The translations under genes were made by a program, and so were the position numbers. DNA of 64,000 bases, from assembly GCF_003130405.1 (NCBI RefSeq), contig NZ_QEAS01000004.1:154644-218643 (forward strand), read 5' to 3'. A model generated the notes under the pieces. That model worked only from the letters and a program-made list of their open reading frames with translations. It ran no database searches and was not told the origin of the DNA. This DNA comes from Pararcticibacter amylolyticus (GTDB taxonomy: Bacteria; Bacteroidota; Bacteroidia; Sphingobacteriales; Sphingobacteriaceae). Positions 8,673 through 58,914 of the stretch are shown one piece after another (the stretch's first letter is position 1; the number at the start of each line of letters is the position of its first letter).

Positions 8673-10880
8673 CTAATTACTCTTCTGTGCGATGAATTTT
8701 CCCACTTCAGATTCGAAATTATGCATTTCGAAATCGTCGTTCAGGATCTTCCCGTCTTTTCCGACCAGTATGTATTTGGGAATGCCGTTGAATTTGAACA
8801 GTTCGCGTAAATAGAGATAGTCATCAGAGGAAAGGCGATAGGTGTTCGCCAGCTCCTGTTCTTTTACAAACTCATCATATTTGTTGAGAGGGGACTCGTT
8901 TTCTGCGGTAATGAAAATGAATTCGAATGAACCGTTGTTTTTGTACTTATGGCGGCTTTCTTTAAAATGCCTTATAGAAGCGATGCAGGGCCCGCAGAAG
9001 ATACCCCAGCAATCAACGATGAGGGTTTTGCCTTTGTGCGGTTCAATGATCTTTCGGAAAACATCAGCGGCTTTTCCCTGCGGCAGATCATAAGCCGTTT
9101 TTGCAACGGATGGATATGCCTGGTAGAACATGCGTTCGGCTTCCGACAGGAGGAAGGGGTGAGTAATTCCGTCTTCGAACGCAGTGAGGTAAGCACGGGC
9201 CGCATCCTTATCCTTTACCTGTTCGAACGTAAACTCCAGCGAGCGTACCTTGGCGATCTGATAAACCAATCCAGGTTGAAGCCTGAAATCTGTGTTCAGT
9301 ACTGAGTCTTTGTATGCCCAACCCTTTTTTGCCAGCATAACAGACGTATTTTCGGGCTTTTTCAGGTACTTGGTTTTATATCCCTCGTTGTGCTGCTTGT
9401 ATCGCTCGTAGAACAACTTTGACTGTACTTCGAAATCCTTCATCATCTTGTCTGTTTCCTCTTTTGTAAGATTCGTTCCGAGTTTCTTGAGCACTTCCTG
9501 TTCAAGCTTAAGGAAATTTTTGTCTTGCACTGTCGGCTTAAGTCCGAGTTCTGTAAAGAGGTATTGGCCAAAAGATTTGTCGGGTGAGGTGATCACTGAG
9601 ATCCGAAAGGAACCTTTAAAGGGATTCGCAAACTCGAAGCGGTTAATGAATGTACCGAATGAAGAGGTGGCCAGCAGGGTCGGATCATCGAGAGGGATCA
9701 GCTTCATGAAATCATAATAGTCCAGGTTTTCACGGATCTTCAGTATAGCATTCCCTGTATCAACAGTGGCCTGATATTTCCTGTCCATGAGATAGTCAAA
9801 CATGTAGCTGGCATTGCTGATCATGACTTCATTGCTCAGGATCTTTTCAGCTTGGGGGCTGATCTTTTTTTCTTTTAAGCTCCGCTTAAGCTTTTCTTCG
9901 GCTTCTTTCCAGTATTGCATTTGGCGGACTTTAAAGTCAGCCGGGGCAAGCGTTTTGACTAATTTTTTAAATGAGTCGTAATCAGGTGGCAGCAAAGCTG
10001 CAGACATCAGGTCACCATTAACCCGGGCGAGGGGGCCGCCGAACACGATATCTTTAAAGGTGTTTCTTTGGTTCCTTAACCTGTCGGCTGTTAGGAATTC
10101 TTCCCAGTTAAGTACCATCGACAGGCTCCGGCCTGGTTCCAAATAGAACGGGATAGTCCTGTCTGCCATTACCAGGTAAGTATATTTTGGATGAGACATA
10201 GGGATATTAGCCTCAAAGCGCCCATCTTCATGGATACTGATCACCGTCGGAAAATCTTCATCGGTCAGGTCGTTGGAAGCATACACGATGCCGGTTGAAA
10301 ATCCTGCTCTCTGGTCGTACCCCTTGATGTAACCTACCAGCCTGGCAGTATCGCGGCTGAAGAATTCGGGAGACGAATAATCAACCGGTGTTTTCTTTTT
10401 GCTCTTTTCCAGCTCTGCATTGAGCCATTCTTCCACGCTTGCCGGAACAGAGTCCGGTTGTGGAATTGCCTTTCTTTTCTGATTTAGCGAAATTCCGTAA
10501 ATAAGGGTCTTTTCTCCTTCTCCATAATCAATGGTCTGTGAACCCCTGGGAAGAGGAGGGAATACCAATATAAAGGTGGAATCGCCGGAAGCGGGCATGT
10601 AAATTTCTTTATCAATTTCGCCGTTCTCCATACTCCTGATAAACAGCTTCTCACCGCTGCCGGCTTTAATAAAGGTTTGTTTCTCAAACTTCATCCACCA
10701 TCCCGGAAGGAACGTGCAGTGTACCCAGAGCCGCGTTTCGTTTTTTTTGATCTCGATCCTGGAAATTTCGCTCACCCCGGTGTTTCTGAATTCGTATGCC
10801 GGGTTCAGGATCTTCCTCTGGGCAAAGGAAAAGTATGAAAACAGCGTAAGCGCGACAAGGGTAATGATCTGCTTCTGCAT
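8673..10880 (-). CDS. Large TlpA-like thioredoxin-fold exported protein
   Basis: This 735-residue protein begins with a signal peptide (MQKQIITLVALTLFSYFSFAQ). The long N-terminal part (to about 590) is beta-rich then helical and I do not recognise a named domain there. The last 130 residues are a TlpA/AhpC-type thioredoxin fold with Cys629-Gly-Pro-Cys632 in the DCWGIFCGPC context and the cis-Pro strand FNGIPKYILVGKDGKIL. Such proteins in Bacteroidota work in the periplasm as thiol reductases. It is divergent from a second, shorter TlpA-like gene, and the gap holds a strong inverted repeat. The 735-residue length is well above simple TlpA proteins. Confidence 0.85.
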   Translation of the reverse strand: MQKQIITLVALTLFSYFSFAQRKILNPAYEFRNTGVSEISRIEIKKNETRLWVHCTFLPGWWMKFEKQTFIKAGSGEKLFIRSMENGEIDKEIYMPASGDSTFILVFPPLPRGSQTIDYGEGEKTLIYGISLNQKRKAIPQPDSVPASVEEWLNAELEKSKKKTPVDYSSPEFFSRDTARLVGYIKGYDQRAGFSTGIVYASNDLTDEDFPTVISIHEDGRFEANIPMSHPKYTYLVMADRTIPFYLEPGRSLSMVLNWEEFLTADRLRNQRNTFKDIVFGGPLARVNGDLMSAALLPPDYDSFKKLVKTLAPADFKVRQMQYWKEAEEKLKRSLKEKKISPQAEKILSNEVMISNASYMFDYLMDRKYQATVDTGNAILKIRENLDYYDFMKLIPLDDPTLLATSSFGTFINRFEFANPFKGSFRISVITSPDKSFGQYLFTELGLKPTVQDKNFLKLEQEVLKKLGTNLTKEETDKMMKDFEVQSKLFYERYKQHNEGYKTKYLKKPENTSVMLAKKGWAYKDSVLNTDFRLQPGLVYQIAKVRSLEFTFEQVKDKDAARAYLTAFEDGITHPFLLSEAERMFYQAYPSVAKTAYDLPQGKAADVFRKIIEPHKGKTLIVDCWGIFCGPCIASIRHFKESRHKYKNNGSFEFIFITAENESPLNKYDEFVKEQELANTYRLSSDDYLYLRELFKFNGIPKYILVGKDGKILNDDFEMHNFESEVGKFIAQKSN

Positions 10881-10992: not shown

Positions 10993-11030
10993 TACACTTA
11001 TTTGAGGATATTAATCCTCAAATAAGTGTA
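10993..11030. repeat. Perfect 17-bp inverted repeat in a divergent promoter region
   Basis: The arms 10993-11009 and 11014-11030 are perfectly complementary and separated by 4 bases. The element lies between two divergent thioredoxin-fold genes, 113 nt from the start of one and 56 nt from the start of the other. No T-run follows on either side, so an operator or a leader hairpin is more likely than a terminator. Confidence 0.75.
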
Positions 11031-11085
11031 TTGTGAGAAAATACCTGAAAATACCTATCTTAACCACCAAATATTATATACAAAT

Positions 11086-12231
11086 ATGAAATATGGAATG
11101 AAATTGCTGGGCGGCCTGTTTTTTTGTGCTGTTCCTGGCTTATCTATGGCGCAAAGCGGGAATTATGTGTTGAATGGAAAGGTTGCGCCGTTGCCGGAGA
11201 CAGCAAAGGCTTATCTTTATTACCAGACCGGAAAGGGGGCTACTACTGATTCTGCCGTGATTAAAAACGGGACATTTGCGTTCTCCGGAACGTTGAACGA
11301 ACCGCTTAGCTCGTACCTGATCATTAACCCAAATGGTACAGGCATCCGTCAGCGGGGTCTTGCCATGATCCCTCTTTATCTTGAGAACGGTAAGATCACC
11401 GTGTCTAGCAAAGACTCGCTGCAAAATGCTAAGGTTTCAGGAGGTCCTGTAAATGCAGATAACGCGGTTCTGAACAATTTGCTGAAGCCCGTGAATGAAA
11501 AAATGGCTGCTATAAATAAAGAATATTCTGAGGCCCCGGAAGAAAAACAAAAGTCTCAGGAGTTTACCAGCGCACTTGAAAAGCGATACCAGGTGCTGGA
11601 AGAAGAACAGAAATCTATTTATAAAGCCTTTATCAAAAGTCATCCGGCGTCTTTGTTGAGCTTGTTTTCTATCAAAAATTTAGGGGGATCTGTGCCGGAT
11701 GTAAAAGAAGTAGAACCTTTGTTCAATTCGCTGGCGGCTTCCGTAAAGTCCAGCAAAGCTGGTGTCGCTTTTGCGGAAGAGATAACGAAGATGAAGAAGA
11801 CCGCCATTGGTGCGATGGCTCCTGATTTTACCATGGCAGACACGCTTGGCAAACAGGTTTCTCTTCATGATTTCAGGGGTAAATATGTACTGATAGACTT
11901 TTGGGCAAGCTGGTGCGGCCCTTGCCGCAAGGAGAACCCCAACGTGGTAAAGGCGTTTAATACTTATCAGTCGAAAGGATTCACTGTACTAGGTGTGTCC
12001 CTGGATCAAACCAATGCACGGGATCGCTGGATAAAAGCTATTCATGACGACGGCTTAACCTGGACCCAGGTATCAGACCTGAAAGGATGGAAGAATGAGG
12101 CCGCAGGTCTTTATTCCGTTCGCGCTATTCCGCAGAACTTTCTGATAGATCCAAGCGGGAAGATCATTGCCACTAATTTACGTGGCGAAGAACTGGAAAG
12201 TACGCTGAGTCGTATTCTTGGAAAAATATAA
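11086..12231 (+). CDS. TlpA family thiol-disulfide oxidoreductase with DUF4369-like N-terminal domain
   Basis: I place the start at the ATG at 11086 (MKYGMKLLGGLFFCAVPGLSMAQ, a clear signal peptide; 381 residues). An upstream GTG at 11026 would add 20 residues in front of the signal and would overlap the inverted repeat. Residues about 25-125 resemble DUF4369, the beta-sandwich often found before thioredoxin domains in Bacteroidota. A helical linker follows. The thioredoxin fold carries Cys277-Gly-Pro-Cys280 in DFWASWCGPCRKENP and the cis-Pro strand RAIPQNFLIDPSGKI. It should reduce disulfides in the periplasm. A hairpin terminator follows directly. Confidence 0.92.
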   Translation: MKYGMKLLGGLFFCAVPGLSMAQSGNYVLNGKVAPLPETAKAYLYYQTGKGATTDSAVIKNGTFAFSGTLNEPLSSYLIINPNGTGIRQRGLAMIPLYLENGKITVSSKDSLQNAKVSGGPVNADNAVLNNLLKPVNEKMAAINKEYSEAPEEKQKSQEFTSALEKRYQVLEEEQKSIYKAFIKSHPASLLSLFSIKNLGGSVPDVKEVEPLFNSLAASVKSSKAGVAFAEEITKMKKTAIGAMAPDFTMADTLGKQVSLHDFRGKYVLIDFWASWCGPCRKENPNVVKAFNTYQSKGFTVLGVSLDQTNARDRWIKAIHDDGLTWTQVSDLKGWKNEAAGLYSVRAIPQNFLIDPSGKIIATNLRGEELESTLSRILGKI

Positions 12232-12341: not shown

Positions 12342-13028
12342 CTAAGCAAATATCCTCTTCAGGAATTCTTCTTTAAATGTTTCAGAAACGGGGATGTACT
12401 TGTCACGGATCTTTATCCGATCCCTTTCAATACTTTCAATTTTATCAATGGCTACAAGGTAGGATTTGTGTACCCGGCAAAACCTGGCGGGCGGAAGCTC
12501 CTGTTCCAGGTCTTTAAAGGTCTGAAGAGTCATGACACCTTTAGCTGGTGTATGAATACGACGGTAATCGCGCATTCCTTCTATGAAAAGAATATCGTCC
12601 AGTAAGACCTTTTCCAGACGATACTCCGTCTTTACAAACAGGAAATTCCGCAGGTTCACGCGTTCGTCCTGGCTGATCTTGTCGAACACCCTGTTTACTG
12701 CCTGCAGGAAGCGTTCGAAGGTATAAGGCTTGAGCAGGTAGTCCGCTACGTTAAGCTCGAAGCCTTTCAGCGCATACTGGTCGAAAGCTGTAGAAATGAT
12801 CACCTCGGGACGTTGGGTGAGGGATTCCAGAAGTTGTATTCCTGTGAAGCCGTCCATTTGAATATCCAGGAAGATCAGGTCGACTTTGGCGGTTCTGAGA
12901 AAGCTGATGGCTTCGATTCCACTGTCGAATATGCCGGTAAGCTGCAGAAATCCGGCTTTAATGACATAGTCTTTTAGCCGTTCCTGTGCCAGAGGTTCGT
13001 CTTCTATGATGATGCAGTTAATTTTCAT
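12342..13028 (-). CDS. LytTR family response regulator
   Basis: This 228-residue protein has a receiver domain (1-120) with the acidic pair in IIEDEP, the phospho-acceptor Asp55 in LIFLDIQMDG, and the conserved Lys in YLLKPYTFERF. The C-terminal LytTR DNA-binding domain (about 130-228) shows FLFVKTEYRLEKV, ILFIEGMRDYRRIHT and FCRVHKSYLVAIDKIESI. Its start overlaps the end of the histidine kinase gene by 11 bases, so the two are translationally coupled and form one system. LytTR regulators bind spaced direct repeats. I could not pick a target for this one in the window; the flanking thioredoxin-fold or NamZ genes are possible. Confidence 0.94.
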   Translation of the reverse strand: MKINCIIIEDEPLAQERLKDYVIKAGFLQLTGIFDSGIEAISFLRTAKVDLIFLDIQMDGFTGIQLLESLTQRPEVIISTAFDQYALKGFELNVADYLLKPYTFERFLQAVNRVFDKISQDERVNLRNFLFVKTEYRLEKVLLDDILFIEGMRDYRRIHTPAKGVMTLQTFKDLEQELPPARFCRVHKSYLVAIDKIESIERDRIKIRDKYIPVSETFKEEFLKRIFA

Positions 13029-14076
13029 TCAGCTTAATGCTCAGGCTTACTATATATTTCGATTCTGTTTTTTCCATGTGGAGGATATGATCCGGATAGA
13101 TTAAAGTTAGACGGTTTTTTATGATATCCAAGCCGGCACCTCCTTTTGTTTTTTCAAGTCCGGGAATTTTATCAAGCACGTTGTTACAGGAAAAGTAGAT
13201 CTCTTCACCGATGATCCTGATGATAATATTAATAGCATTTTCCTGTTTTTTGTTGGTGCTGTGCTTAAACGCATTCTCGATGAACGGAATAAATAGCATA
13301 GGAGCAATCTGCAGATTCCCCGGGTCCCCGGTCACTTCAAGTTTTACAAAACCGGAAGCCGATGATCTGATGCGCTGCAGGTCAATGTATTTGCTGATAT
13401 ACTCCAGTTCCTGGGATAACAGGATCTTCTCGGCTGAGGCGTCGTAAATGGTGAACCGCATAATGTCGGAAAGCTTTTTTAAATATTCGGAGGCTTTAGC
13501 CGGGCTCTTTTCGATCAGGATATCGATGTTGTTGAGTGTATTAAAAAGGAAATGAGGATTGATCTGCGCACGTAGCAGCGCCAGTTCCGTCTGAAGATTT
13601 TTTTTCTCAAGTGTTTCTTTAATCTTCCGCTCGTTAAACCATAAGATCAGGGCTTTGAGCAAACTGCCGCTGATAATCGCACTGATAGTCATTGACATCA
13701 TATTCAGAAGTCTCAGTTTCAACGGGTATAATATTGCATTATGTTTGTCTTGAGAAGATAAAATATCTCCGAATTCACGTTTGAAGGGGACAATGAATAA
13801 TTCTCCTATCAGTAAAGTAAAAAGTGTTGTCAGTACAGCAAGTGCTCCGAAAGTCAGGTATTTTTTTCTGGTAAAATATGTCGGGAAAAGGAAGCAGTAA
13901 GCAACGTAGAAGGAGAAAAGTGGCACTAGTTGAAAAATGAACCTACTCCATAGAAGCGACAGCGTATAGAGGTCGGAGGTAGATGATTTTAACTGAAACG
14001 ACACTAACGGGATAATACTGAAAAGCAGTCTTGACCAGTAAACAAGATGAATAATGATGATGGTTTTTTTCTTCAT
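13018..14076 (-). CDS. LytS/YehU-type sensor histidine kinase
   Basis: This 352-residue kinase has four predicted membrane helices (about 5-27, 42-64, 73-96, 126-147) and no separate sensor domain. The His_kinase domain (PF06580 type) carries the phospho-acceptor His175 in QINPHFLFNTLNN. The ATPase part has the N-box ENAFKHST and the glycine box KGGAGLDIIKNRL. It passes phosphate to the LytTR regulator encoded downstream with an 11-base overlap. A weak promoter candidate is AACCTTTG on the minus strand (14096-14103), one mismatch from the Bacteroidota -7 box. The signal it senses is unknown. Confidence 0.94.
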   Translation of the reverse strand: MKKKTIIIIHLVYWSRLLFSIIPLVSFQLKSSTSDLYTLSLLWSRFIFQLVPLFSFYVAYCFLFPTYFTRKKYLTFGALAVLTTLFTLLIGELFIVPFKREFGDILSSQDKHNAILYPLKLRLLNMMSMTISAIISGSLLKALILWFNERKIKETLEKKNLQTELALLRAQINPHFLFNTLNNIDILIEKSPAKASEYLKKLSDIMRFTIYDASAEKILLSQELEYISKYIDLQRIRSSASGFVKLEVTGDPGNLQIAPMLFIPFIENAFKHSTNKKQENAINIIIRIIGEEIYFSCNNVLDKIPGLEKTKGGAGLDIIKNRLTLIYPDHILHMEKTESKYIVSLSIKLNEN

Positions 14077-14266: not shown

Positions 14267-16213
14267 TTAAGGTAACCGGAGATCTAGCACAGAGATGACC
14301 GGCAGGTGATCAGAATCAGTGGATTCCAGGACATAAGACGATAAAGGCCAGAGACCTTTACCGCTGAGGATGTAGTCGATTTTCCGGTCTGTTCCGCCTG
14401 CCGGAAAGGTTAGGTCTTTCGTGTTAGTAACATCTTTTAAATATTTTGTCAGCGTGGTCACTTCTGCTGTGCCAGGGCTTGCGTTCATGTCGCCGGTCAG
14501 GATCAAATACCTGCATTTGGTTTTCTCTATGATCCTGTTGATCATGTTTGCCTGGTTGATTCTTGACCGGGAATCCCTGTAGTCCATATGGACGACTGCA
14601 GCCTTCACCATGGTCTTTTTGCTGACGTGCAGGTCGGCAACAAAGAATGCGACTGTTTTGGAACTGTCTGATAATATGGGGAGACGGAAGGAACTTACTT
14701 TACCAATGGGATAGCGGGAAAGCAGGGCATTGCCATAAGCACCTCCCTGGAAGGCGAAGTGTTTCTGGAACAGGTGATGCATGCCTGTCATGGAGGCAAG
14801 TATGGCAGCCTGATCCATGTTGTCTGAGCGGCTGCATACACTGTCGACTTCCTGCAGGCCCACTATGCCGGCTCCACTGCTGTTTATAAGGGAGGCCATG
14901 TGTGATAACCTGTCCTGCTCATCTTTGTCTGCGCCGTGGTGAATATTCCAGGTCATAACTTTGATAGCTGCCGGGGGATCGGCGTAAAGAAGATATTTGC
15001 TTCGTATCTTCCTGTATTTCTTTAATCCGGCTTCCCAGGTTTGACGGATTGCGGGTTCGCTAAACCCCCGTTTGATCTGTTCGCGCAGCAAGCTATTTCC
15101 CACCAGGTAATCAAAATGCAGGATGCTATCGGGGCTCTTCGCATTCTCCCCGTTAAAGAAAAGCGCTTTCTCGGGATAGCTTTTGTACATTTCGAGTAGC
15201 CACTGCAGATTGAGCCGTCCTCCGATTCCGAAGGCACCGCGAGGGTAGTTGCGGAGGTCAATACCGTAGCAGGTATCGTTTGCGTGTGCCGGGCGTTCGG
15301 CCATACCGGTAATAGGTTTTGGAGTGAATGCGAAATCGTATTTTCCTTTAAGCAGCGGGCTTCCTATTGCCTGGAACGGAAAGAATGTACCTCTGGCATC
15401 GCTGACTGCCGTTGCTCCGAACCAGCAAAGGGAAGGATAGAGAAAGACTGACCGGGGTGTGTTGAGATTGGGAGAAGGAGGTTGTTTAAAATCAAAGCTT
15501 TGGCCGTGACGATAATTTCCCACCGGTATTACTGTCAGACTGCACTTTTTTCTGTTCCGGAGCCATCCTTCCCCATTGATCATCCGGGCGTATTCGCCGA
15601 TGGTCATGCCGTGCACGATGGGTACAGGGTGCATGCCGATGAAACTTTTGAAACGAGGGTACAGAACAGGACCGTCTATATACCCGTCGTTGGGATTCGG
15701 ACGATCCAGTATAATGACCGGGATGCTGGCTTCTGCACAGGCTTCCATAATGTAATGCAGAGTCGATATATAGGTATAGAACCGGACTCCGACATCCTGC
15801 ATGTCGAACAGGATGGCATCGATGCCGCGGAGTTCTTCTGGCTTGGGTTTTTGGTGATGTCCGAAAAGGGAGATTACCTGGATGTGCGTAACAGGGTCCG
15901 CATGATCCTCCACGGGAGTATTGGCGGCGACTTTTCCGTACAGCCCGTGTTCGGGACTAAATACCCTGACGATGCTCACACCCCTGGCGAGAAGGGAATC
16001 GATCATTCGGCGCCTTCCGATCATAGAACTATGGTTGCCGGCCAGCGCTACTTTTTTATTGCGGAGCAGGGGAAGGTACTCTTCTGTACGCTCAGCTCCC
16101 GGAATGCAGACCGTATCTGTATGCTGAATTGGGCTGCTCTCCTGTGATGCGGATAAGTGATTCATTGCAAGCGCAAAAATGCCTGCAATGAAAAGTTTTA
16201 CTGCTGTTCCCAT
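14267..16213 (-). CDS. Fusion of DUF1343/NamZ-like exo-muramidase domain and endonuclease/exonuclease/phosphatase domain
   Basis: This 648-residue protein has a signal peptide (about 1-22) and two complete domains. Residues 40-410 match DUF1343, the NamZ family of exo-beta-N-acetylmuramidases, with FSPEHG (Glu88), DMQDVGVRFYTY, ILDRPNP, VHGMTIGEYA and the typical end KYRKIRSKYLLY. The usual FEGT..SEGRGT stretch is altered here to CWFGATAVSDARGT (263-276). Residues 415-648 are an endonuclease/exonuclease/phosphatase (EEP) fold with its catalytic set: Asn423 (TWNIHHG), Glu455 (GLQEVD), Asp575 and Asn577 (TGDMNASP), Asp613 (KIDYIL) and Asp635-His636 (SDHLP). The start overlaps the SusD gene by 16 bases, so it is the third gene of the SusCD operon. 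The domain calls are firm; joint action on cell-wall material is inferred. Confidence 0.88.
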   Translation of the reverse strand: MGTAVKLFIAGIFALAMNHLSASQESSPIQHTDTVCIPGAERTEEYLPLLRNKKVALAGNHSSMIGRRRMIDSLLARGVSIVRVFSPEHGLYGKVAANTPVEDHADPVTHIQVISLFGHHQKPKPEELRGIDAILFDMQDVGVRFYTYISTLHYIMEACAEASIPVIILDRPNPNDGYIDGPVLYPRFKSFIGMHPVPIVHGMTIGEYARMINGEGWLRNRKKCSLTVIPVGNYRHGQSFDFKQPPSPNLNTPRSVFLYPSLCWFGATAVSDARGTFFPFQAIGSPLLKGKYDFAFTPKPITGMAERPAHANDTCYGIDLRNYPRGAFGIGGRLNLQWLLEMYKSYPEKALFFNGENAKSPDSILHFDYLVGNSLLREQIKRGFSEPAIRQTWEAGLKKYRKIRSKYLLYADPPAAIKVMTWNIHHGADKDEQDRLSHMASLINSSGAGIVGLQEVDSVCSRSDNMDQAAILASMTGMHHLFQKHFAFQGGAYGNALLSRYPIGKVSSFRLPILSDSSKTVAFFVADLHVSKKTMVKAAVVHMDYRDSRSRINQANMINRIIEKTKCRYLILTGDMNASPGTAEVTTLTKYLKDVTNTKDLTFPAGGTDRKIDYILSGKGLWPLSSYVLESTDSDHLPVISVLDLRLP

Positions 16214-17982
16214 CCTGGATTCTGTTTGAGATTGCCATTGTCCACAATATCTGAATTGGCGATCGGCCGGTAATATTTCTTATCCTCAAAAGACCTTTTC
16301 TCGTCATCCCGCCATGTAACGAACCCTTTGTTTCCTTCGGTAAGACGGGCTGCCCTGTTGTCTATGACGTAATAGATAACGCCCGGCACCTTAGTTTGCG
16401 GAACTGCATCAACAAAGCAGACATCGGGACTGCTGTTTCCGTCCAGGTCCATCAGGACGTTTTTAGCGGCTACGTAGATGCCTTTCCATTGCATTTCGAG
16501 CAGGCGGCCTTTCTTCCATCGTAAAAGATCGGCATACCTGAAGCCCTCGTATATCAGTTCTATCCCACGCTCTCTTCTTACTTCCAGCAGGTATTTATCG
16601 TTGATCCCGCTGAAATAAACCTGCTGGAGATAGGGATCAGCGGATACAGGTGGATCCGTTTTTACACCCGCTCGTTTGCGGAGTTCGCCGATGGTCCTGC
16701 TCCAGATTGCAGGGTCGCTATTCATAAGTCCCAGTTCTGCCACTGCTTCTGCGTAGTTGAGGAGAACTTCGGCGTATCGGATCAGGGGCACGGAATTGTA
16801 GGATTCTGCCGCACCGTCCAGGCGTTTGTCATCAAGACTGAATTTCAGGATTTGATATCCGGTAAATGTGTAGCCGAAGTTGGGTGGGGCCGCGCTGCCA
16901 TCACTCCTTTTGTAACCGATTCCCCTGATAGTTTGTGAAAGACGCGGATCTCTTCCCGTTACTTCCCTTACAAACCGCATGGTATCGGATCCATCTATAT
17001 CGGTAAACCTTGATCCATCACGGTTCAGGTAGGTATTGACAAACTGTTTGTTGAGCCCCCAGCGGGCTCCGTAAGTGGCACTGCTGAATTTCCAGGTAAT
17101 ATCATGCCATCTTTTAAGGGAGTTGTTGTAAACAACGGCCCAAAGTATTTCCTGCGAAACAGGGTTTTCGGAAGTGAAGAGGGTACGGTAATCTTTATCT
17201 GGAACTCCGGTGCTGTAAAGGGAGTACTTTTTTGAGTCTATTACTTTTTTTGCTGCTTCGGCTGCAGCCTGCAGCCAACTGTCTGCTGTGTTCCCCAGGT
17301 TGAGTTCGGTATGGTATTTCCTGAATGTTCCTTCGAAAAGACAAACACGTGATTGGAACGCGAGGGCTACCTGTCGCGTCACCTTTGAAGCGGTGTTGTC
17401 TTTTACATCTTCAATATTGGCAGCAGCAAAATTAAGGTCGGCCAAAACGGAATCCATTACCAGGGTACGAGGGTCGCGCGGCTTGTACAACTCTTCAGTG
17501 TCGTTAACATCCAGTGGTTTCGAATACCATGGCACATCGCCGTACGTCTTTACTTTTTCAAAATAGAACCAGGCTCTGAAGAAACGAGCCACCCCCTTGT
17601 AATGATTACGCACCTGCTGATCGATGGCAGGGTTGTTGGATCTCTTCAGGAAGTAGTTAATGTTCCGTAGATCTGTCCACGACCAGCGAGCCTGATCAAC
17701 CGGGGTGAAATTGCCGGCAATAAAAGCGGGGGAGTTTGATTTGGATGTATAGTCGCCCATCTCGTCTGCGATCACCACAGACAAGCCATCGGGCATCATT
17801 TTCTGATAGAAGGAGTTGGTATAGAGCTCCAGATCCTCTTTTTTGTTAAAGAAAGTACTGGGTACCAGCTTATCGAATGGTTCCTTCTCAAGGAAATCTT
17901 TATTACAGGATGCCAGCAGTGCAATCAGGCTGGTCAGTGCGAGCCAAAGGGCTTTTCTATGGAATATATGAGAGTGAAGCAT
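16198..17982 (-). CDS. RagB/SusD family surface glycan-binding lipoprotein
   Basis: This 594-residue protein has a lipoprotein signal ending in ALLASC, which should anchor it on the outer-membrane surface. The first half carries the TPR-like helices of SusD (FFRAWFYFEKVKTYGDVPWYSKPL) and the C-terminal part the conserved RYAEVLLNYAEAVAELG and RRERGIELIYEGFRYADLLRWK segments. SusD proteins cap the SusC barrel and bind its substrate. The gene begins one base after the SusC stop. Because the next gene encodes a NamZ-like protein, the ligand may be a muropeptide or other MurNAc-containing fragment; this is inferred from context. Confidence 0.95.
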   Translation of the reverse strand: MLHSHIFHRKALWLALTSLIALLASCNKDFLEKEPFDKLVPSTFFNKKEDLELYTNSFYQKMMPDGLSVVIADEMGDYTSKSNSPAFIAGNFTPVDQARWSWTDLRNINYFLKRSNNPAIDQQVRNHYKGVARFFRAWFYFEKVKTYGDVPWYSKPLDVNDTEELYKPRDPRTLVMDSVLADLNFAAANIEDVKDNTASKVTRQVALAFQSRVCLFEGTFRKYHTELNLGNTADSWLQAAAEAAKKVIDSKKYSLYSTGVPDKDYRTLFTSENPVSQEILWAVVYNNSLKRWHDITWKFSSATYGARWGLNKQFVNTYLNRDGSRFTDIDGSDTMRFVREVTGRDPRLSQTIRGIGYKRSDGSAAPPNFGYTFTGYQILKFSLDDKRLDGAAESYNSVPLIRYAEVLLNYAEAVAELGLMNSDPAIWSRTIGELRKRAGVKTDPPVSADPYLQQVYFSGINDKYLLEVRRERGIELIYEGFRYADLLRWKKGRLLEMQWKGIYVAAKNVLMDLDGNSSPDVCFVDAVPQTKVPGVIYYVIDNRAARLTEGNKGFVTWRDDEKRSFEDKKYYRPIANSDIVDNGNLKQNPGWEQQ

Positions 17983-17983
17983 C

Positions 17984-20900
17984 TTAAAAAGTGAGATTTA
18001 AACCGAGTGTAGTTGTTTTGAGCATGGGGTAGGCATAGCCCTGGCCACTGTTGTTCATCAGATCGGAAGCCGGATCTTCGATCACTTCCGGATCAATGCT
18101 GTCGGAATATTTATTCATCCCCGAGAGGGTGAACAGGTTTTGGGTGGAGAGGAAGATGTTTGCACCTTTAATATGAAGCTTGTCGAGCCACGGCCGGGGA
18201 AATGTGTAATCAAAGGTGAGGTTTTTCAGCCTCATGTAGCTTGCATCCTGCAGATACCTGGTCTGTGGTGCCCCCAGTGAACGGGAAGCACTGTTGGCGG
18301 CATATCCTCTCAGTCTCGGAAAATATCCATCAGGTTTATCTTCTGTCCAGACATTTTCCATCATTTTTACCGGCTGATATCCATAAGGCCTGTTATACAG
18401 GCCCCAGAAGATCCCTGCCTCGGGGGCGAAATACCAGTCGCGTTTCCCGATACCCTGGAAGAATGCCGAAAGGCCAAAACCATTCCATCTTCCCGTTAGG
18501 GTGAAGCCGAACTGGTAACGGGGCGAGTTATTTCCAATTATCTTCCGGTCTCCTGGATTGTATATGGTGTTGTCGCCCTGGTTAATCACCTTGTCGCCAT
18601 TGATATCGGCGAATTTGATATCTCCGGGCAGTTGTTTCCTGTTATTGGAGTTTTGCAGGAAATCCTGGTTGGCATGGCCCGCTATCTCTTGTTCTGAAGT
18701 GAAGAGACCCAGGGTCTGGTATCCCCAGATTTCCCCGATCGTATGCCCAACATAGTATGTGGCCGACAATGCCCCGGTTGGATTATTGAACCTGGTGATG
18801 ACCGATTTGTTGTCCCACAGCGAACCATTAAGACTATATTCGAATGCTTTTCCAAACAGGGTACTTTTATTACGCCATGAAAGAGTGAGCTCCCATCCTT
18901 TGGTCGACATATCGGCATAGTTTCCGTAGGGCACAACAGCTCCGAATACAGCGGGCAGCGGCGGCCCGGCAGTAAACATATCGGTAGTTTTCCGGTCATA
19001 CCAGTCGAAATTAATGTTCATCCGGCTTTTGAGCAGGCTTATGTCGGCTCCGAGGTTGAATGTTTCAGAGCGTTCCCAGGTCAGTCCATTCGGTATCACG
19101 TCCGGGATTTGAGTATAGTTATTCTGGATGCCATTCAGCACGGCGCTCATCTTGATTACCGACATCTGTTCCTGGTAGCGGTAGGGGGCTACGTTCCCGT
19201 TTCCGAGAGATCCGTAGGAACTTCTGACTTTCAGTTCGTCGAGCCAGTTCCGGCTCCAGTTCATGAAAGGTTCTTCCGAGAGCCGCCATCCTGCGGATAC
19301 GGAAGGGAAGAAGCCATACCGCTGGCTGGCCGGAAACTTTGATGAGCCATCATAGCGGCCGTTGAACTCGGCAAGATAGCGGTTTTTATAGTCGTATCCC
19401 ACCCGGTAGAACAGGCCGAGGTATGCCCATTCGTTGCCTCCTCCTCCCACGGTGTAGTTGAGACCGTCCATCAAGTTGAAGTCCGGTTTGGATGGGATCA
19501 GCAACCCATCGCGACTGGCATTGAAGCTTTCGTATTTTGATGATTCGGCGTTATAGCCTGCGAGAAGCTTAAGCCCATGACCAACTCCGAAATGCCTTTC
19601 GTAACCTGCTGTTAAATTGAACGTTTTATAGGTCCGCTCGTTGGTGAACTGCTGAAGCAGGCTCCTTCCCAGCCTTGCTGTCTGCCCCGGAGCGTTGCTG
19701 TAGCTGACATAATTGTTTATGCGTTTCTCATTGGCGCGCTCTTTCAGGAAAGTAAAGTCGCCTTTCAGTGTCAACGCATTGTTCAGTGCCCTGGCTGTAA
19801 AACCCAACGTGTTCCTGAACATGGTATTGGAGGTGTTCGATTCATTATTGCCATCAATAAAGGATGCAAGACCCGAGTAAACGCCTGTATGGGTGTACGT
19901 GCCGTCGGGATTGTAAATGAGGGCCATCGGGTAGGAGAGCAGATCCATCATTCTCCAGATTGTCTGATTATCGCGGTCGGCAAGCATCGGGAAAGAATAG
20001 GTATAATCCGATAATTCGAAATTATTCTGAATGGTGAGCCATTCTGAGGCCTTAATATCCCCTTTGGCCCGTATATTGTACTTATTCAGCCGATCGGTGT
20101 TATGGTTAAATATTCCATCCTGGAAGTAATATCTTCCTGAAAGAAGATAGCTTGTTTTATCTGTTCCACCAGAGATGCTAAGCGCCTGTTCGGTCGATGG
20201 AATATTATCCTGATACAGTTCTTTGTACCAGTCGGTGTTCCCGAAATATTCATAGCGTGCAAGGGCTTCGTTATATTCTGCTTTCGGAAGGGAGGGATCT
20301 TCGTCGTGCTGCTTCAGCCTGTCGAGATATTCCAGTGAAAACGGGAAAATGTTGTTTACAACCGTAGGGTGGGAGTTATAGTCATACCATCCGTTATATG
20401 AATCATCAAAATTCTTTGCCCACACATATCCGTTTGTAACCAGGTTGGGCGTGACGGTCCTTTGGTTAACAGAATAATTGCTGTTCGCCTGGATAATGGT
20501 TTTTCCTGTTTTGGCCGATTTAGTGGTGATTAACACAACTCCGAAGGCTGCCCGTGAGCCATAGATAGCCGCCGAAGAGGCATCTTTCAGAACGGTTACG
20601 CTTTCTACGTCGTTTGGATTAATGAGGGAAGGATCGCCTTCTGCTCCGTCTATAAGGACCAGGGCGCTCCCTCCGGCACCGATGGAAGTAGTGCCACGAA
20701 CATTATAAGTTGCTTTTCTCGTAGGGCTTCCGTCTACCATTTTAAGGTTAAGGTTAGGGATGGTTCCCTGCAGCAGACGGGTAAGGCTGGGAGATGGACG
20801 GTTTTCAATCACCTGAGAGGTGATCTGTGAGACTGCACCTGTGAGGTTGACTTTCTTTTGTGTGCCGTACCCTACCACTACAACCTCGTTCAGTTCACCG

Positions 20901-21499
20901 GGAAGTTCCTTCATAGTAAAAGAGGCAGAAGTGTTTCTTCCTTCAGCTACGACGATGTTCTTCTTTATTTGCGTTTCAAATGCGATGTATGTTACCTTCA
21001 GTGTGTAAGTGCCAGGTGCTACCGCCAGGGTGAAGTGCCCGTCGGACCCACAGCTCACACTTTGTTTAAGTTCAAGGATTTGTACTCCGGCACCTGGCAG
21101 CGGCTGTCCCGACGCGTCGGTAATGAGCCCGGAAATGGTCCCCGGCTGAGGTCTTGCCGTGAGGATGATAGCGCCAGCTTCCTCTCTGTAATCAATCTTG
21201 TGCCTGGAGAAAAGAGTGTGCAGGACACTTTCAAGCGGTTCGTTATGAAACCGTACAGGTCCGGTGCGGATATCGCCAAGCCTGAGACGATCGGTAAAAT
21301 CAAAGTCAATGCTGTTTTTCTCCTGCAGGTCACGCACAACCTGGTAGAGAGTGGTCTGTGTGTAACTAAGGCTTACCTTCTTCTGTAATACCTGTGCATT
21401 ACCGGAGGAAGCATTCAGTACGGGAGCGGTAGTAGTAATGAGTATATAGAGGATTGTTGTTATTTTCATATACCAGCGCCAACGCGGTGAAAATTTCAT
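17984..21499 (-). CDS. SusC/RagA-type TonB-dependent transporter with STN signalling domain
   Basis: This 1171-residue outer-membrane transporter has a signal peptide (MKITTILYILITTTAPVLNA part), an STN domain (about 40-115, VSLSYTQTTLYQVVRDLQEK), a CarboxypepD_reg domain (about 117-205, GLITDASGQPLPGAGVQI), the SusC box NEVVVVGYGTQKK, the plug (TVLKDASSAAIYGSRAAFGVVLITTK) and a barrel ending in TTLGLNLTF. The STN domain normally contacts a FecR anti-sigma factor, and such a gene sits just upstream, so substrate binding should switch on the ECF sigma factor. It is directly followed by its SusD partner. Confidence 0.96.
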   Translation of the reverse strand: MKFSPRWRWYMKITTILYILITTTAPVLNASSGNAQVLQKKVSLSYTQTTLYQVVRDLQEKNSIDFDFTDRLRLGDIRTGPVRFHNEPLESVLHTLFSRHKIDYREEAGAIILTARPQPGTISGLITDASGQPLPGAGVQILELKQSVSCGSDGHFTLAVAPGTYTLKVTYIAFETQIKKNIVVAEGRNTSASFTMKELPGELNEVVVVGYGTQKKVNLTGAVSQITSQVIENRPSPSLTRLLQGTIPNLNLKMVDGSPTRKATYNVRGTTSIGAGGSALVLIDGAEGDPSLINPNDVESVTVLKDASSAAIYGSRAAFGVVLITTKSAKTGKTIIQANSNYSVNQRTVTPNLVTNGYVWAKNFDDSYNGWYDYNSHPTVVNNIFPFSLEYLDRLKQHDEDPSLPKAEYNEALARYEYFGNTDWYKELYQDNIPSTEQALSISGGTDKTSYLLSGRYYFQDGIFNHNTDRLNKYNIRAKGDIKASEWLTIQNNFELSDYTYSFPMLADRDNQTIWRMMDLLSYPMALIYNPDGTYTHTGVYSGLASFIDGNNESNTSNTMFRNTLGFTARALNNALTLKGDFTFLKERANEKRINNYVSYSNAPGQTARLGRSLLQQFTNERTYKTFNLTAGYERHFGVGHGLKLLAGYNAESSKYESFNASRDGLLIPSKPDFNLMDGLNYTVGGGGNEWAYLGLFYRVGYDYKNRYLAEFNGRYDGSSKFPASQRYGFFPSVSAGWRLSEEPFMNWSRNWLDELKVRSSYGSLGNGNVAPYRYQEQMSVIKMSAVLNGIQNNYTQIPDVIPNGLTWERSETFNLGADISLLKSRMNINFDWYDRKTTDMFTAGPPLPAVFGAVVPYGNYADMSTKGWELTLSWRNKSTLFGKAFEYSLNGSLWDNKSVITRFNNPTGALSATYYVGHTIGEIWGYQTLGLFTSEQEIAGHANQDFLQNSNNRKQLPGDIKFADINGDKVINQGDNTIYNPGDRKIIGNNSPRYQFGFTLTGRWNGFGLSAFFQGIGKRDWYFAPEAGIFWGLYNRPYGYQPVKMMENVWTEDKPDGYFPRLRGYAANSASRSLGAPQTRYLQDASYMRLKNLTFDYTFPRPWLDKLHIKGANIFLSTQNLFTLSGMNKYSDSIDPEVIEDPASDLMNNSGQGYAYPMLKTTTLGLNLTF

Positions 21500-21630: not shown

Positions 21631-22587
21631 TCAGTAGAGTATTATCCTGTTCTCCTCCTTTCTGAATTTTTTTCCAGTCATTCTGCATAGCTGTAGAAGT
21701 GTTTTATTCCACTGCCGCGATGCCCGGATAGTAAAGTTGTATTTCATTGTTTTAATTTCCGGATCTACTGTTTGGAGCTTGATCCCGTAATAGTTGTAGA
21801 ATAGTTCTGCCAGATCGCCGAACGATGCCTGCTCTAATACAGTTGTGCCGCTTCTCCAGCCCGCATCTTTTTCAGTGTTAAAACCGGAGAAAACGCTTCG
21901 GCCGCTTTTGGTGCTGATCTCCATTTTTCTGCCCTTATTCAGGATGCCTGCGATTCCGGACCGGCCAGAGACGCTGACTTTTCCGGTGCTCACGGAGATC
22001 GTTATACTGCGGGTAGGTGTATATCCCCTTACGTTGAATGAAGTGCCCAGCACCCTGACCTCTACAGATCCGGTATACACTTTGAAAGGCCGGCGGGAAT
22101 CTTTCTTTATGTCGAAGAATGCTTCGCCCTGTAGTTTTACTACCCGGTTTTGTTTCCGGAAATTTGGGGGGATGTACAATGATGAATTAGCGTTCAGGAA
22201 GATCACCGAACTGTCGGAAAGCACCAGGCGTTTTACCTCTCCGATGCCGGTGCTAACTGCAGTGTAACATTGCCGTGCAGGGGCAGTGCTTTTGTCCGCT
22301 GTTCCGTTACGAATAAGCATCGTTACAGAAAGAAGAAGGAGCGCTATCGCGGCTGCAATACCTGTGCCCAACCTGCGGTAAAGCGGAACAGGCTGCCGCT
22401 TATTCAGGACTTCGCGGAGGATCTTTTCTTTAAAAACATCCAGACCGGCTGTTTCGGGTTGATTTCCGGTAGTTTTACGTTCATTTAGAAACGACTCATA
22501 CCAGCGGTCTATTATATATCGTTCGGCACTTGTTGCTTTGTTCGTTTGGTAGCGCCGTATAAGCCTGTTCAATCGTGCTTTATCCAC
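21631..22587 (-). CDS. FecR family anti-sigma factor
   Basis: This 318-residue protein has a cytoplasmic N-terminal sigma-binding region (LIRRYQTNKATSAERYIIDRWYE), one membrane helix (about 70-92, GTGIAAAIALLLLSVTMLI), a periplasmic FecR domain (LSDSSVIFLNANSSLYIP, LQGEAFFDIKKDSRRPF, VRVLGTSFNVRGY) and a C-terminal DUF4974-type region that is expected to contact the SusC STN domain. It lies between the ECF sigma gene (75-nt gap) and the SusC gene. It should hold the sigma factor at the membrane until SusC is loaded. Confidence 0.94.
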   Translation of the reverse strand: MDKARLNRLIRRYQTNKATSAERYIIDRWYESFLNERKTTGNQPETAGLDVFKEKILREVLNKRQPVPLYRRLGTGIAAAIALLLLSVTMLIRNGTADKSTAPARQCYTAVSTGIGEVKRLVLSDSSVIFLNANSSLYIPPNFRKQNRVVKLQGEAFFDIKKDSRRPFKVYTGSVEVRVLGTSFNVRGYTPTRSITISVSTGKVSVSGRSGIAGILNKGRKMEISTKSGRSVFSGFNTEKDAGWRSGTTVLEQASFGDLAELFYNYYGIKLQTVDPEIKTMKYNFTIRASRQWNKTLLQLCRMTGKKFRKEENRIILY

Positions 22588-22661: not shown

Positions 22662-23264
22662 TTAAATTAAGCGGCTCAGTACGAGCAGTAACAGGGAATG
22701 GCTGATATCAGGGTGCCGTGAAATAAGCGCAGCTCTGATCCTCCTGTTCAGTTCTGAATGGTAGCTTCTCACCGTCTGCTCGGCGAGGCCAAGGGCGGCT
22801 GCTATCTCACGCAGGGAATAGTCTTCATTGCGAAGGATAAAGATGTTTTGCATCGCCGGAGGCAGCTGTCCGATAATTTCGGAAAGAGATGTTTGAAGAT
22901 CATTTGCAGCGAGGGTGTCGAGGATACCGTTCTGTATATCATCCATACGGGTGAGTAAGTGAGCTATTGCCTGTTCGTGCAGGCTGGCCCTCGAAACATG
23001 CCTGAGGAATTTATTTTTTAAAGTTGTATGAAGATAGCCTGCAAGGGAGGTACCCACTGTAAGCTGTTCTCTCTTTTCCCAAATTCCGGCAAAAACGTCT
23101 TGCACCAGGTCTTTTGCAGTGTCACTGTCCCTTGTAAGTTTCATCGCCTGTTGCAACAGGTCTTTCGTGAAGGAGTTAACAATACATTCAAAAGCTTTTT
23201 CGCTGCTTGTCTTTAACCCGGCCAGAATTTCATCCTGGTTTGCCTCGTTAACCGTCAGTACCAT
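22662..23264 (-). CDS. ECF RNA polymerase sigma-70 factor
   Basis: I place the start at the ATG at 23264 (MVLTVNEANQDEILAG, 200 residues); a TTG at 23291 would add nine residues. Region 2 is visible as AFECIVNSFTKDLLQQAMKL and DTAKDLVQDVFAGIWEKRE, and region 4 as LPPAMQNIFILRNEDYSLREIAAALG with LAEQTVRSYHSELNRRIRAAL. It should be controlled by the FecR gene next to it and direct transcription of the SusCD operon. TAATTTTG on the minus strand (23274-23281) matches the -7 consensus exactly but would leave almost no leader, so I list it only here. Confidence 0.92.
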   Translation of the reverse strand: MVLTVNEANQDEILAGLKTSSEKAFECIVNSFTKDLLQQAMKLTRDSDTAKDLVQDVFAGIWEKREQLTVGTSLAGYLHTTLKNKFLRHVSRASLHEQAIAHLLTRMDDIQNGILDTLAANDLQTSLSEIIGQLPPAMQNIFILRNEDYSLREIAAALGLAEQTVRSYHSELNRRIRAALISRHPDISHSLLLLVLSRLI

Positions 23265-23523
23265 AGTTGTATGCAAAATTATCTTCTGCAATCCGGACTA
23301 AAGGGATGGCGCATGTTATAAAAAAGTTAAGTTTCGGTTAGGCAGGGTTTGCTAGTTTAAGAATAGAAAAATTTACTCCAGCCAGTTGAAACTGATCGGC
23401 GTTGAGTTAAGTAATACCAGAAAAATATGTCTGCATTGGCTAAAGAAAGTGCCAGAGATTCAGATTTAAGTCAATTCTTTCAGGAAAGCCCTGAGTTTAC
23501 GGCTTAAACAATAGTTTTACAAG

Positions 23524-56743: not shown

Positions 56744-56767
56744 TCCCGGTCCTGAAATGGACCGGGA
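56744..56767 (+). terminator. Hairpin between the surface-protein genes and the enzyme genes of the second locus
   Basis: TCCCGGTCC (56744-56752) pairs perfectly with GGACCGGGA (56759-56767), loop TGAAAT, followed by TGCTATTTTATT. It lies 24 bases after the lipoprotein stop and ends 15 bases before the next ATG at 56782, so it could be a partial terminator that lowers expression of the downstream enzymes. Confidence 0.6.
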
Positions 56768-56781
56768 TGCTATTTTATTGC

Positions 56782-58914
56782 ATGAAAAATAGATATTTAT
56801 TGCTGGTTTTTGTATTGGTATTCAATGGTTTAATGGGATTCGCACAGGGGATTTCTGAGATTCCGAATGCTCCGGAAAAGGGCTCGTGGACAATGGTGCT
56901 GCTGCCCGATCCTCAGGGTTATACCAAGTTTAAACGTAACCAGCCTTTACTTGATATCCTTTTTAATTGGATTGAAACAAATAAGGAACGGCTGAACATT
57001 CGCCTGGTGTTATGTACAGGCGACCTCGTAGAGCAGAATTTTGTCCCGGAGCCCGATGTCCGCAACGGAGATCAGACCAGTTATGAACAATGGCAGGTCA
57101 TTTCGGCGGCATTTAAACGTTTGGATAATAAGCTCCCTTATGTTTTATGTACCGGCAACCATGATTATGGTACCAACCATACCGAAAACCGGTACAGCCA
57201 GTTTAATAGTTTCTTTCCGCCTGATCGTAATCCTTTAAACAAGACAATGCTGGTGGGCATGGCTCCCAATGCGCAGGGAGTAAAAACACTGGAAAATGCG
57301 TGCTATGAGTTTGTTGCACCATCCGGACGCAAGATGCTGATCTTTTCGCTGGAATATTTTCCGAGGAAATCTGTCGTAAGCTGGGCTACCCGCATCGCGC
57401 TGCAACCAAGGTACCGGTACCATACCGGAGTGATTCTTACTCACAGTTATATGCACTCTTCTACCAGGGGAAACCGGTTGACGGATGAAAACGATGGACT
57501 TCCTGGTTTTTCAGATATTACGACCGGCCGCAGACTATGGGAAAATTTTATAAGCAGCGTGCCAAATATCCGGATGGTATTCTGCGGTCATGTAGTGGAT
57601 GAACCTACTCATCAGGGGCACACTGGTTTCCGTGAAGATAAAAATGCTTATGGAAGCCCTGTTCAGCAAATGCTCTTTAATGCTCAGAATGAAGGAGGAA
57701 ACTGGCAGGGAAATGGCGGCAACACCTGGATCAGGCTGCTGGAGTTTTCAGCGGGCAACGAATTGGTAAACGTACGTACTGTTTCCCCGCTTTTTGCTGT
57801 TTCTCCGGAAACGATACATCTGGCTCAGCGCAAGGAGCCGTTCGACCAGTTTAGTTTTAAAGTTGCTGCTGATGCACGCGATACTGTTGTACTATCCGGA
57901 AAGGTACTGCCTTTTACCCTTTCTGATTACAAGATTCCGGTTTCTGTAAAAGGCAGTTTTATCGCTCAGATCAATCATCCTAAATCTCCTGCTGCTGCTG
58001 CGCGGATCATATCTGATACATCCGGACTGTTTGTTATAGCAGGGGGAAACCAACTGAAAATCAAGGCAGGAAGAGCTTTAAGTAAAGGATCGGCTAATGA
58101 ATTTGAGATAAGCCTGAAATCGGGTCGGGATACAGCATCATTTATCCTTGTTAAGGATCAGTTTATCCGGAATAAAGTTGTGGCACATCGTGGCGCATGG
58201 AAAGATGCCGGAGTACCACAGAACTCGCTCAAGTCTGAGGAACTGGCGATAAAGTATGGATGCGAAGCAGCGGAATTTGATGTATGGCTCTCGGCTGACG
58301 GTGTTCCGGTGGTATCTCATGACGGCATCATTGGTAGCAGGAAGATTGAAGAAACCTCTGCAGAAGAACTTCAGCAGGTACCGCTTGGGGCCAATTGTTA
58401 TGTTCCGACGCTCGAAGAATACTTGTTAAGTATCCGTGGGCAAAACAAAACCCGCTTGTTCCTCGAGATCAAAACTTCGGAAAAGGGACAGGAACGTTGC
58501 CTGGAGCTCACCCGCAAGGTCGTGGCGATGGTTCAGCGGATGAAGGTGCAGGCATGGGTAGATTATATCAGTTTTAATTACGGTATTCTGCAGGAGATTA
58601 TAAAACTGGATCCTTCCGCGAAAACGGCTTATCTATGGGGAGACCGTACTCCTGCAATCGTTAAAAGCGACGGTCTGAGCGGCCTTGATTATCCTTATGA
58701 ACATTACAGGAAGAATCCATCGTGGATGGAAGAGGCTCGTCAGCTTCAGCTTAGCATTAACAGCTGGACTATAAATCAGGAGGACAGAATGGTTGAATTG
58801 CTTGATCAGCAAGTAGATCTTATTACCACAGATGAGCCGCTTATGCTTCTCCGGCTCCTGGAACGCAGAGCGGAAGCAACGGTGAAAAAGGACATAAAAC
58901 GAATAAAAGAATAA
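56782..58914 (+). CDS. Fusion of calcineurin-like metallophosphatase and glycerophosphodiester phosphodiesterase
   Basis: I place the start at the ATG at 56782 (MKNRYLLLVFVLVFNGLMGFAQ, signal peptide; 710 residues); the ATG at 56767 sits on the end of the hairpin. Residues 25-330 are a metallophosphatase with LPDPQGY, LCTGDLVEQ, CTGNHDYG, ILTHSYMH and FCGHVVDE in the usual order. A beta-sandwich linker (335-460) follows. Residues 465-695 are a GDPD barrel with VVAHRGAWKDAG, EFDVWLSADGVPVVSHD and LFLEIKTSEKG as the catalytic and metal ligands; the common PEN motif reads PQN. The product should cleave phosphodiesters and then remove phosphate in the periplasm. The target in a SusCD locus is unknown but likely a phosphate-bearing glycan. 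Confidence 0.9.
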   Translation: MKNRYLLLVFVLVFNGLMGFAQGISEIPNAPEKGSWTMVLLPDPQGYTKFKRNQPLLDILFNWIETNKERLNIRLVLCTGDLVEQNFVPEPDVRNGDQTSYEQWQVISAAFKRLDNKLPYVLCTGNHDYGTNHTENRYSQFNSFFPPDRNPLNKTMLVGMAPNAQGVKTLENACYEFVAPSGRKMLIFSLEYFPRKSVVSWATRIALQPRYRYHTGVILTHSYMHSSTRGNRLTDENDGLPGFSDITTGRRLWENFISSVPNIRMVFCGHVVDEPTHQGHTGFREDKNAYGSPVQQMLFNAQNEGGNWQGNGGNTWIRLLEFSAGNELVNVRTVSPLFAVSPETIHLAQRKEPFDQFSFKVAADARDTVVLSGKVLPFTLSDYKIPVSVKGSFIAQINHPKSPAAAARIISDTSGLFVIAGGNQLKIKAGRALSKGSANEFEISLKSGRDTASFILVKDQFIRNKVVAHRGAWKDAGVPQNSLKSEELAIKYGCEAAEFDVWLSADGVPVVSHDGIIGSRKIEETSAEELQQVPLGANCYVPTLEEYLLSIRGQNKTRLFLEIKTSEKGQERCLELTRKVVAMVQRMKVQAWVDYISFNYGILQEIIKLDPSAKTAYLWGDRTPAIVKSDGLSGLDYPYEHYRKNPSWMEEARQLQLSINSWTINQEDRMVELLDQQVDLITTDEPLMLLRLLERRAEATVKKDIKRIKE

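Follow-up and report, generated by a model that had tools for sequence, protein, structure and literature searches.

A protein joining NamZ and EEP domains in a phosphoesterase-linked SusCD locus of Pararcticibacter amylolyticus

We analyzed a stretch of 64,000 nucleotides (hereafter, the window) from the genome of Pararcticibacter amylolyticus, which comprises 6.31 Mb in 153 contigs. The window harbors a same-strand run of genes for an ECF sigma factor, a FecR anti-sigma factor, SusC, SusD, and a protein that combines a NamZ module (NamZ_N and NamZ_C domains) with an endonuclease/exonuclease/phosphatase (EEP) domain, the gene for this fusion protein being the last of the run (Table 1). susC adjoins susD and both are accompanied by ECF/FecR genes, as in a SusCD-type locus (PUL). 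A histidine kinase/LytTR pair (12342-14076), located on the same strand 190 nt downstream of the fusion gene, was not counted in the locus. Two TlpA/thioredoxin-like proteins, the second with DUF4369, are encoded nearby on opposite strands (8673-10880 and 11026-12231).

Table 1. Features of the fusion gene and its SusCD locus (positions in the window)
Feature	Position	Strand	Remarks
NamZ-EEP fusion gene	14267..16213	-	648 aa; start shares 16 nt with the end of susD
Probable Sec signal peptide, residues 1-22	16148..16213	-	judged by eye; helix at residues 2-23 in the model
NamZ_N, residues 55-253	15455..16051	-	Pfam; Glu88-His89 kept, Arg92 to Tyr, Gly98 to Asn
NamZ_C, residues 257-410	14984..15445	-	Pfam; Glu266 to Gly, Gly267 and Gly273 to Ala
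Nine-residue linker, residues 411-419	14957..14983	-	in-frame gap between the Pfam domains
EEP domain, residues 420-636	14306..14956	-	Pfam; ten conserved active-site residues kept
SusD-like lipoprotein, phosphoesterase-linked clade	16198..17982	-	profile match and loci of relatives
SusC/RagA TonB-linked transporter	17984..21499	-	TIGR04056, above cut-off
FecR anti-sigma factor	21631..22587	-	profile match
ECF sigma factor	22662..23291	-	profile match

The fusion gene is a single ORF with an ATG start, in which Pfam recognized NamZ_N (E = 6.8e-72, profile positions 1 to 202 of 203, 241.6 bits against a gathering cut-off of 26.9), NamZ_C (E = 8.1e-26, positions 1 to 152 of 152, 92 bits against 25), and EEP (PF03372; E = 3.9e-22, positions 1 to 225 of 225, above the gathering cut-off). 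The NamZ part closes with KYRKIRSKYLLY at residue 410 and the EEP motif TWNIHHG begins at residue 421, exactly as a preliminary description of this DNA had claimed. The composition is even on the NamZ and EEP sides of the join (G+C of 0.509 and 0.499, GC3 of 0.546 and 0.582), and the gene is located in the middle of its contig (G000:C84:168913-170856), the window alone providing more than 14 kb on either side. The ORF with its Pfam domains, the even composition, and the mid-contig position thus support the claim that NamZ and EEP belong to one real ORF. The further claim that both domains are complete holds for their length, since the Pfam matches run from end to end, but not for the residues of the NamZ half, which has lost two near-invariant signature residues (see below). 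A lipobox is absent from the N terminus, as residues 1 to 35 contain no cysteine, and export of the protein is probable, judging from the signal peptide recognized by eye.

NamZ (GH171, DUF1343) is an exo-beta-N-acetylmuramidase, and a Glu in its N-terminal cleft has been proposed as the catalytic residue. We aligned the NamZ half with 115 relatives (109 distinct) and obtained 118 positions with at least 90% conservation, 103 of which are kept by the fusion, while three of its 15 deviant positions correspond to one insertion. The near-invariant signature residues of the FRG and FEGT motifs are both replaced (R92Y in PEHGFRG and E266G in FEGT..S.GRGT), and further changes affect Gly98 and, in the second motif, Gly267 and Gly273. 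Arg92 and Glu266 are 97 to 98% conserved among the 115 relatives, are visible in structure 4jja, and are kept in all three haloarchaeal NamZs that were aligned. Positions retained in the fusion include Glu88, His89, Asp137, Arg144, Tyr146, Asp170, Glu207, and Asn249. Among the 115 relatives, both losses are shared only with a paralogue from Parapedobacter luteus, which has Asn98 too; this gene, present twice in the set (L009_9 and L088), is the nearest NamZ relative (59%, tree support of 1.0), and a canonical NamZ is encoded in its SusCD locus together with a MurQ-like SIS protein and an SSF transporter. Three NamZ genes stand in tandem there (L009:9860-13708), and the first of them is the one without Arg92 and Glu266. 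The NamZ half was modeled with pLDDT values above 90 across most of residues 33 to 410, and a structure search covering residues 35 to 415 of the model matched DUF1343 structures 4jja (Z of 48.4, rmsd of 1.4 over 353 residues) and 4k05 (Z of 42.0, rmsd of 2.4 over 355 residues).

Therefore, the fusion is like NamZ/GH171 in having both NamZ Pfam domains above cut-off, the NamZ fold, and the Glu and His of the PEHG motif, but it is unlike these proteins in the loss of Arg92 and Glu266, in the attached EEP domain, and in its setting within a phosphoesterase-type SusCD clade. Because Arg92 and Glu266 are gone, we class it as a NamZ homologue and not as an exo-muramidase, and an intact muramidase is not supported. 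From the sequence, the NamZ half may have either a changed specificity or the role of a dead binding module, both being compatible with the two losses. As a dead module, it would tether the EEP phosphodiesterase to wall or amino-sugar polymers. The disappearance of two residues so widely kept, from an otherwise intact fold, is what such a loss of catalysis would leave behind, but the fusion retains most of the highly conserved positions, Glu88 and His89 included, and the P. luteus protein combines both losses with two further NamZ genes in its locus, which suggests a lineage trait rather than decay. We thus consider a dead NamZ half to be rather unlikely.

The EEP half was aligned with 58 relatives and retains all ten conserved polar positions (N423, E455, D457, R462, H542, D575, N577, D613, D635, and H636), which bears out the assertion that its catalytic residues are kept; it deviates at three further conserved positions (D449G, P569Y, and P608T). 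With a full-length domain and these residues intact, it is like other members of superfamily PF03372, but the closest EEP relatives found, among the matches listed, are stand-alone proteins with frames of ∼254 to 368 aa. Models of this half had low pLDDT values (41.5 from the single sequence and mostly below 60 in the EEP part of a second model). By sequence, it had no match at an E value of 1 among solved structures and no relative in the viral contigs searched.

We then looked into the distribution of the fusion. Against 399 genomes of the family, the whole protein and the EEP half alone both identified the fusion in P. amylolyticus only, among the best matches listed, so that fusions whose NamZ is more divergent might have been missed there. 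P. amylolyticus was likewise the sole carrier among the six genomes of the genus (6/6 covered) and when residues 380 to 648 (a C-terminal piece of NamZ plus EEP) were searched against 395 genomes of the phylum and 380 of the class, samples which overlap with each other and with that of the family. Nine Parapedobacter genomes contained no NamZ-EEP fusion, and none of eight loci with long frames at EEP or NamZ matches (L230 to L237) joins NamZ to EEP. Other EEP proteins encoded in the latter include a 651-aa protein with a C-terminal EEP and ∼420 N-terminal residues without a Pfam match (L230:1054-3009, G631:C17) and a fusion of EEP with a pair of purple-acid-phosphatase-like domains (L232:3750-5636, G738:C79). 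A widespread architecture is thus ruled out on the sampled genomes. Conserved neighboring NamZ and EEP genes in Bacteroidota were considered as a source of the fusion and rejected, since 79 named NamZ loci (L009 to L087, some on short contigs) contained no EEP ORF in the fetched stretch. No title or abstract start in the open-access literature searched dealt with a NamZ-EEP or DUF1343-EEP protein, which, together with the genome samples, agrees with the statement that this fusion is not known as a described architecture. The preliminary description had also held that the fusion would be refuted if the two parts were always separate in relatives; they are separate genes in every sampled relative, yet this makes the fusion lineage specific, not false. 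Selection for the joined form is unproven, as no second fusion was found in the samples.

Among the 30 nearest SusD loci (L167 to L196), evaluation of the genetic context revealed a same-strand phosphoesterase-type gene inside the distance limit in 27: PHP+DUF5001 in 20, EEP in 6 (one locus with both), PF04185 in 1, and PF01663 in 1. A purple-acid-phosphatase-like gene in L185 brings the count to 28/30, and L174 and L187 have no phosphoesterase-type gene beside SusCD; adding L241, which was picked for its EEP, gives 28/31 if L185 is not counted. Among control SusD loci of the P. amylolyticus genome, only 2/40 had such a gene (L295 and L306), the families counted having been taken from the test loci themselves. 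The control consisted of 39 of the best 40 of 108 PF07980 rows, the window's second locus being removed, plus row 45 (the next-closest paralogue). L295 has the order EEP-EEP-NAGLU-NAGLU, and L306 is the paralogue chosen as row 45, the closest other P. amylolyticus SusD among the matches listed. EEP alone was weakly enriched beside the SusD clade (6/30 versus 2/40, Fisher P = 0.066; 6/30 versus 1/39 without L306, P = 0.038), and the loci of the clade are not independent, because 20 belong to the PHP+DUF5001 kind, mostly from one genus. BLAST detected no NamZ ORF in L167 to L206; NamZ is therefore a newcomer at the fusion locus, and the 28/30 versus 2/40 contrast leads us to conclude that EEP fills a conserved phosphodiesterase slot of this SusCD clade, to which the NamZ module was added. 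One SusD frame of the clade search, of 1,020 aa (G032), raised the possibility of recoding via TAG, which we rejected since this TAG simply terminates susD ahead of a PHP gene in the same frame. The 6.3-Mb genome of P. amylolyticus has 108 SusD (PF07980) matches. The second SusC-SusD locus of the window includes a 715-aa protein whose single chain carries both a calcineurin-like phosphoesterase domain and a GDPD domain (56767-58914, plus strand), followed by genes for DUF4434, GlcNAc 2-epimerase-like, MFS-like, and DUF1501 proteins.

EEP genes were also found next to genes for amino-sugar enzymes. P. amylolyticus itself contains a FecR-SusC-SusD-EEP-EEP-NHL-NAGLU-NAGLU locus (L240), and a 955-aa fusion of EEP with alpha-N-acetylglucosaminidase (NAGLU) is encoded directly 3' of SusD and a stand-alone EEP in another genome (L231:415-3282, G622:C5). 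Like NamZ-EEP, this last protein follows SusCD and unites an EEP with an exo-acting hydrolase of N-acetylhexosamines, but the hydrolase is from another family and the domain order is reversed. Stand-alone EEPs at 42 to 44% adjoin NagB-like and PIG-L genes in L198 to L201, with additional sulphoglucosamine-sulphatase-like and HGSNAT-like genes in L199, and the neighbors of an EEP at 45% (L228) are a BNR sialidase, an N-acetylneuraminate-lyase-type (NanA-like) protein, and a NanM-like protein. L203 and L204 have no NagB-like/PIG-L neighbor; both have Hsp90 neighbors and L203 also a baeRF neighbor. Taken together, the neighborhoods in L240, L231, L198 to L201, and L228 show that EEP repeatedly occurs together with exo-acting hydrolases of amino sugars. 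Of 282 plasmid records with a match, a single one matches both halves, which are encoded there by separate, neighboring genes: plasmid NZ_CP095492.1 of Halosolutus gelatinilyticus (L258:12961-17250) carries an operon-like run of UgpC-type ABC genes for a sugar transporter, GH3, EEP, and DUF1343/NamZ on one strand, the last three being spaced 69 and 81 nt apart. The matching Haladaptatus locus is a GH3-NamZ pair without EEP. To our knowledge, haloarchaea lack peptidoglycan.

The fusion could also have arisen recently and by chance, if a NamZ variant between susD and a stand-alone EEP lost its stop codon, in which case the two halves would act on unrelated substrates or bring no benefit. A singleton in all sampled genomes is what one would expect from such an event, and a Parapedobacter relative (G078, L186) has a PAP-SusC-SusD-EEP arrangement without NamZ; but the linker is in frame, both halves are full length with an even composition, and EEP and amino-sugar hydrolases co-occur at other loci, so that we regard a chance fusion as unlikely. 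We find it highly improbable that the protein is a nuclease plus wall hydrolase for the joint breakdown of extracellular DNA and wall debris, even though the EEP superfamily includes nucleases. Nucleic acid is also a named target of PUS loci (PMC8115612). However, the scanned EEP neighbors are amino-sugar, phosphoester, or housekeeping genes, none of which was recognized as serving nucleotide uptake, and the DNA target put forward in the preliminary description thus has no specific support. An assembly error joining two genes can practically be dismissed: the join is present in one genome only, but it is in frame in the middle of a contig, without a shift in composition, and in a sensible operon context with a 16-nt susD overlap.

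We propose, with a probability of roughly 45%, that the fusion is an exported two-domain hydrolase of an ECF/FecR-controlled SusCD locus, whose NamZ site is altered and whose target would be an amino-sugar glycan containing phosphodiesters. The EEP half would be an active metal-dependent phosphodiesterase that replaces the stand-alone PHP, EEP, or type-I phosphodiesterase usual in the clade, and the NamZ half would be an exo-hexosaminidase module of GH171 type, captured from a divergent sublineage of NamZ and changed in its active site. The latter would trim the amino-sugar end of the EEP substrate, either preceding or following cleavage of the phosphodiester, and SusCD would take up the products. 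The best fit would be a substrate containing both kinds of bond, such as peptidoglycan fragments that bear wall teichoic acid or a different amino-sugar glycan linked through phosphate. As to its history, a P. luteus-like NamZ variant may have been inserted between susD and a stand-alone EEP, in an arrangement like that of L186, and the two may then have become one chain. Besides the lack of a second fusion, the possibly dead NamZ half, and the weak enrichment of EEP alone in loci that are not independent, what speaks against our proposal is that none of the 79 named NamZ loci has an EEP gene nearby and that EEP is missing beside the Haladaptatus GH3-NamZ pair. The idea of a shared, phosphodiester-decorated wall target survives in part, since the context of the locus fits a phosphodiester-linked glycan.

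By gene neighborhood, the closest described kind of locus is the PUS locus of Flavobacterium, in which PusCD pairs, induced when phosphate is low, are located beside phosphodiesterases and phosphatases (PMC8115612). In both cases, SusCD adjoins phosphodiesterase or phosphatase genes (EEP here, and 28/30 of the nearest SusD loci), but the fusion locus has ECF/FecR genes and a NamZ module, and the PUS loci of that paper carry other enzyme families (PMC8115612). What is new is a fusion of a single lineage, whose NamZ half is unusual and whose SusCD locus is linked to phosphoesterases.

A more specific version of our proposal, which we hold to be quite doubtful, is that the joint loss of Arg92 and Glu266 retuned the NamZ site from MurNAc to a phosphodiester-attached amino sugar and that this module was welded to the phosphodiesterase cutting the bond. 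If so, the amino sugar could belong, for example, to the linkage unit of teichoic acid or to a polymer of GlcNAc-phosphate, and the protein would be a dedicated phosphoglycan-scavenging enzyme, the first of a new GH171 subfamily. In any case, the divergent NamZ sublineage should not carry an exo-muramidase annotation. The SusCD clade in Sphingobacteriaceae is tied to phosphoesterases (PHP+DUF5001, EEP, and type-I phosphodiesterase), and EEP recurs alongside exo-acting hydrolases of amino sugars (NamZ and NAGLU), which suggests that uncharacterized EEPs of such loci cut glycan phosphodiesters, and not only DNA or lipids.
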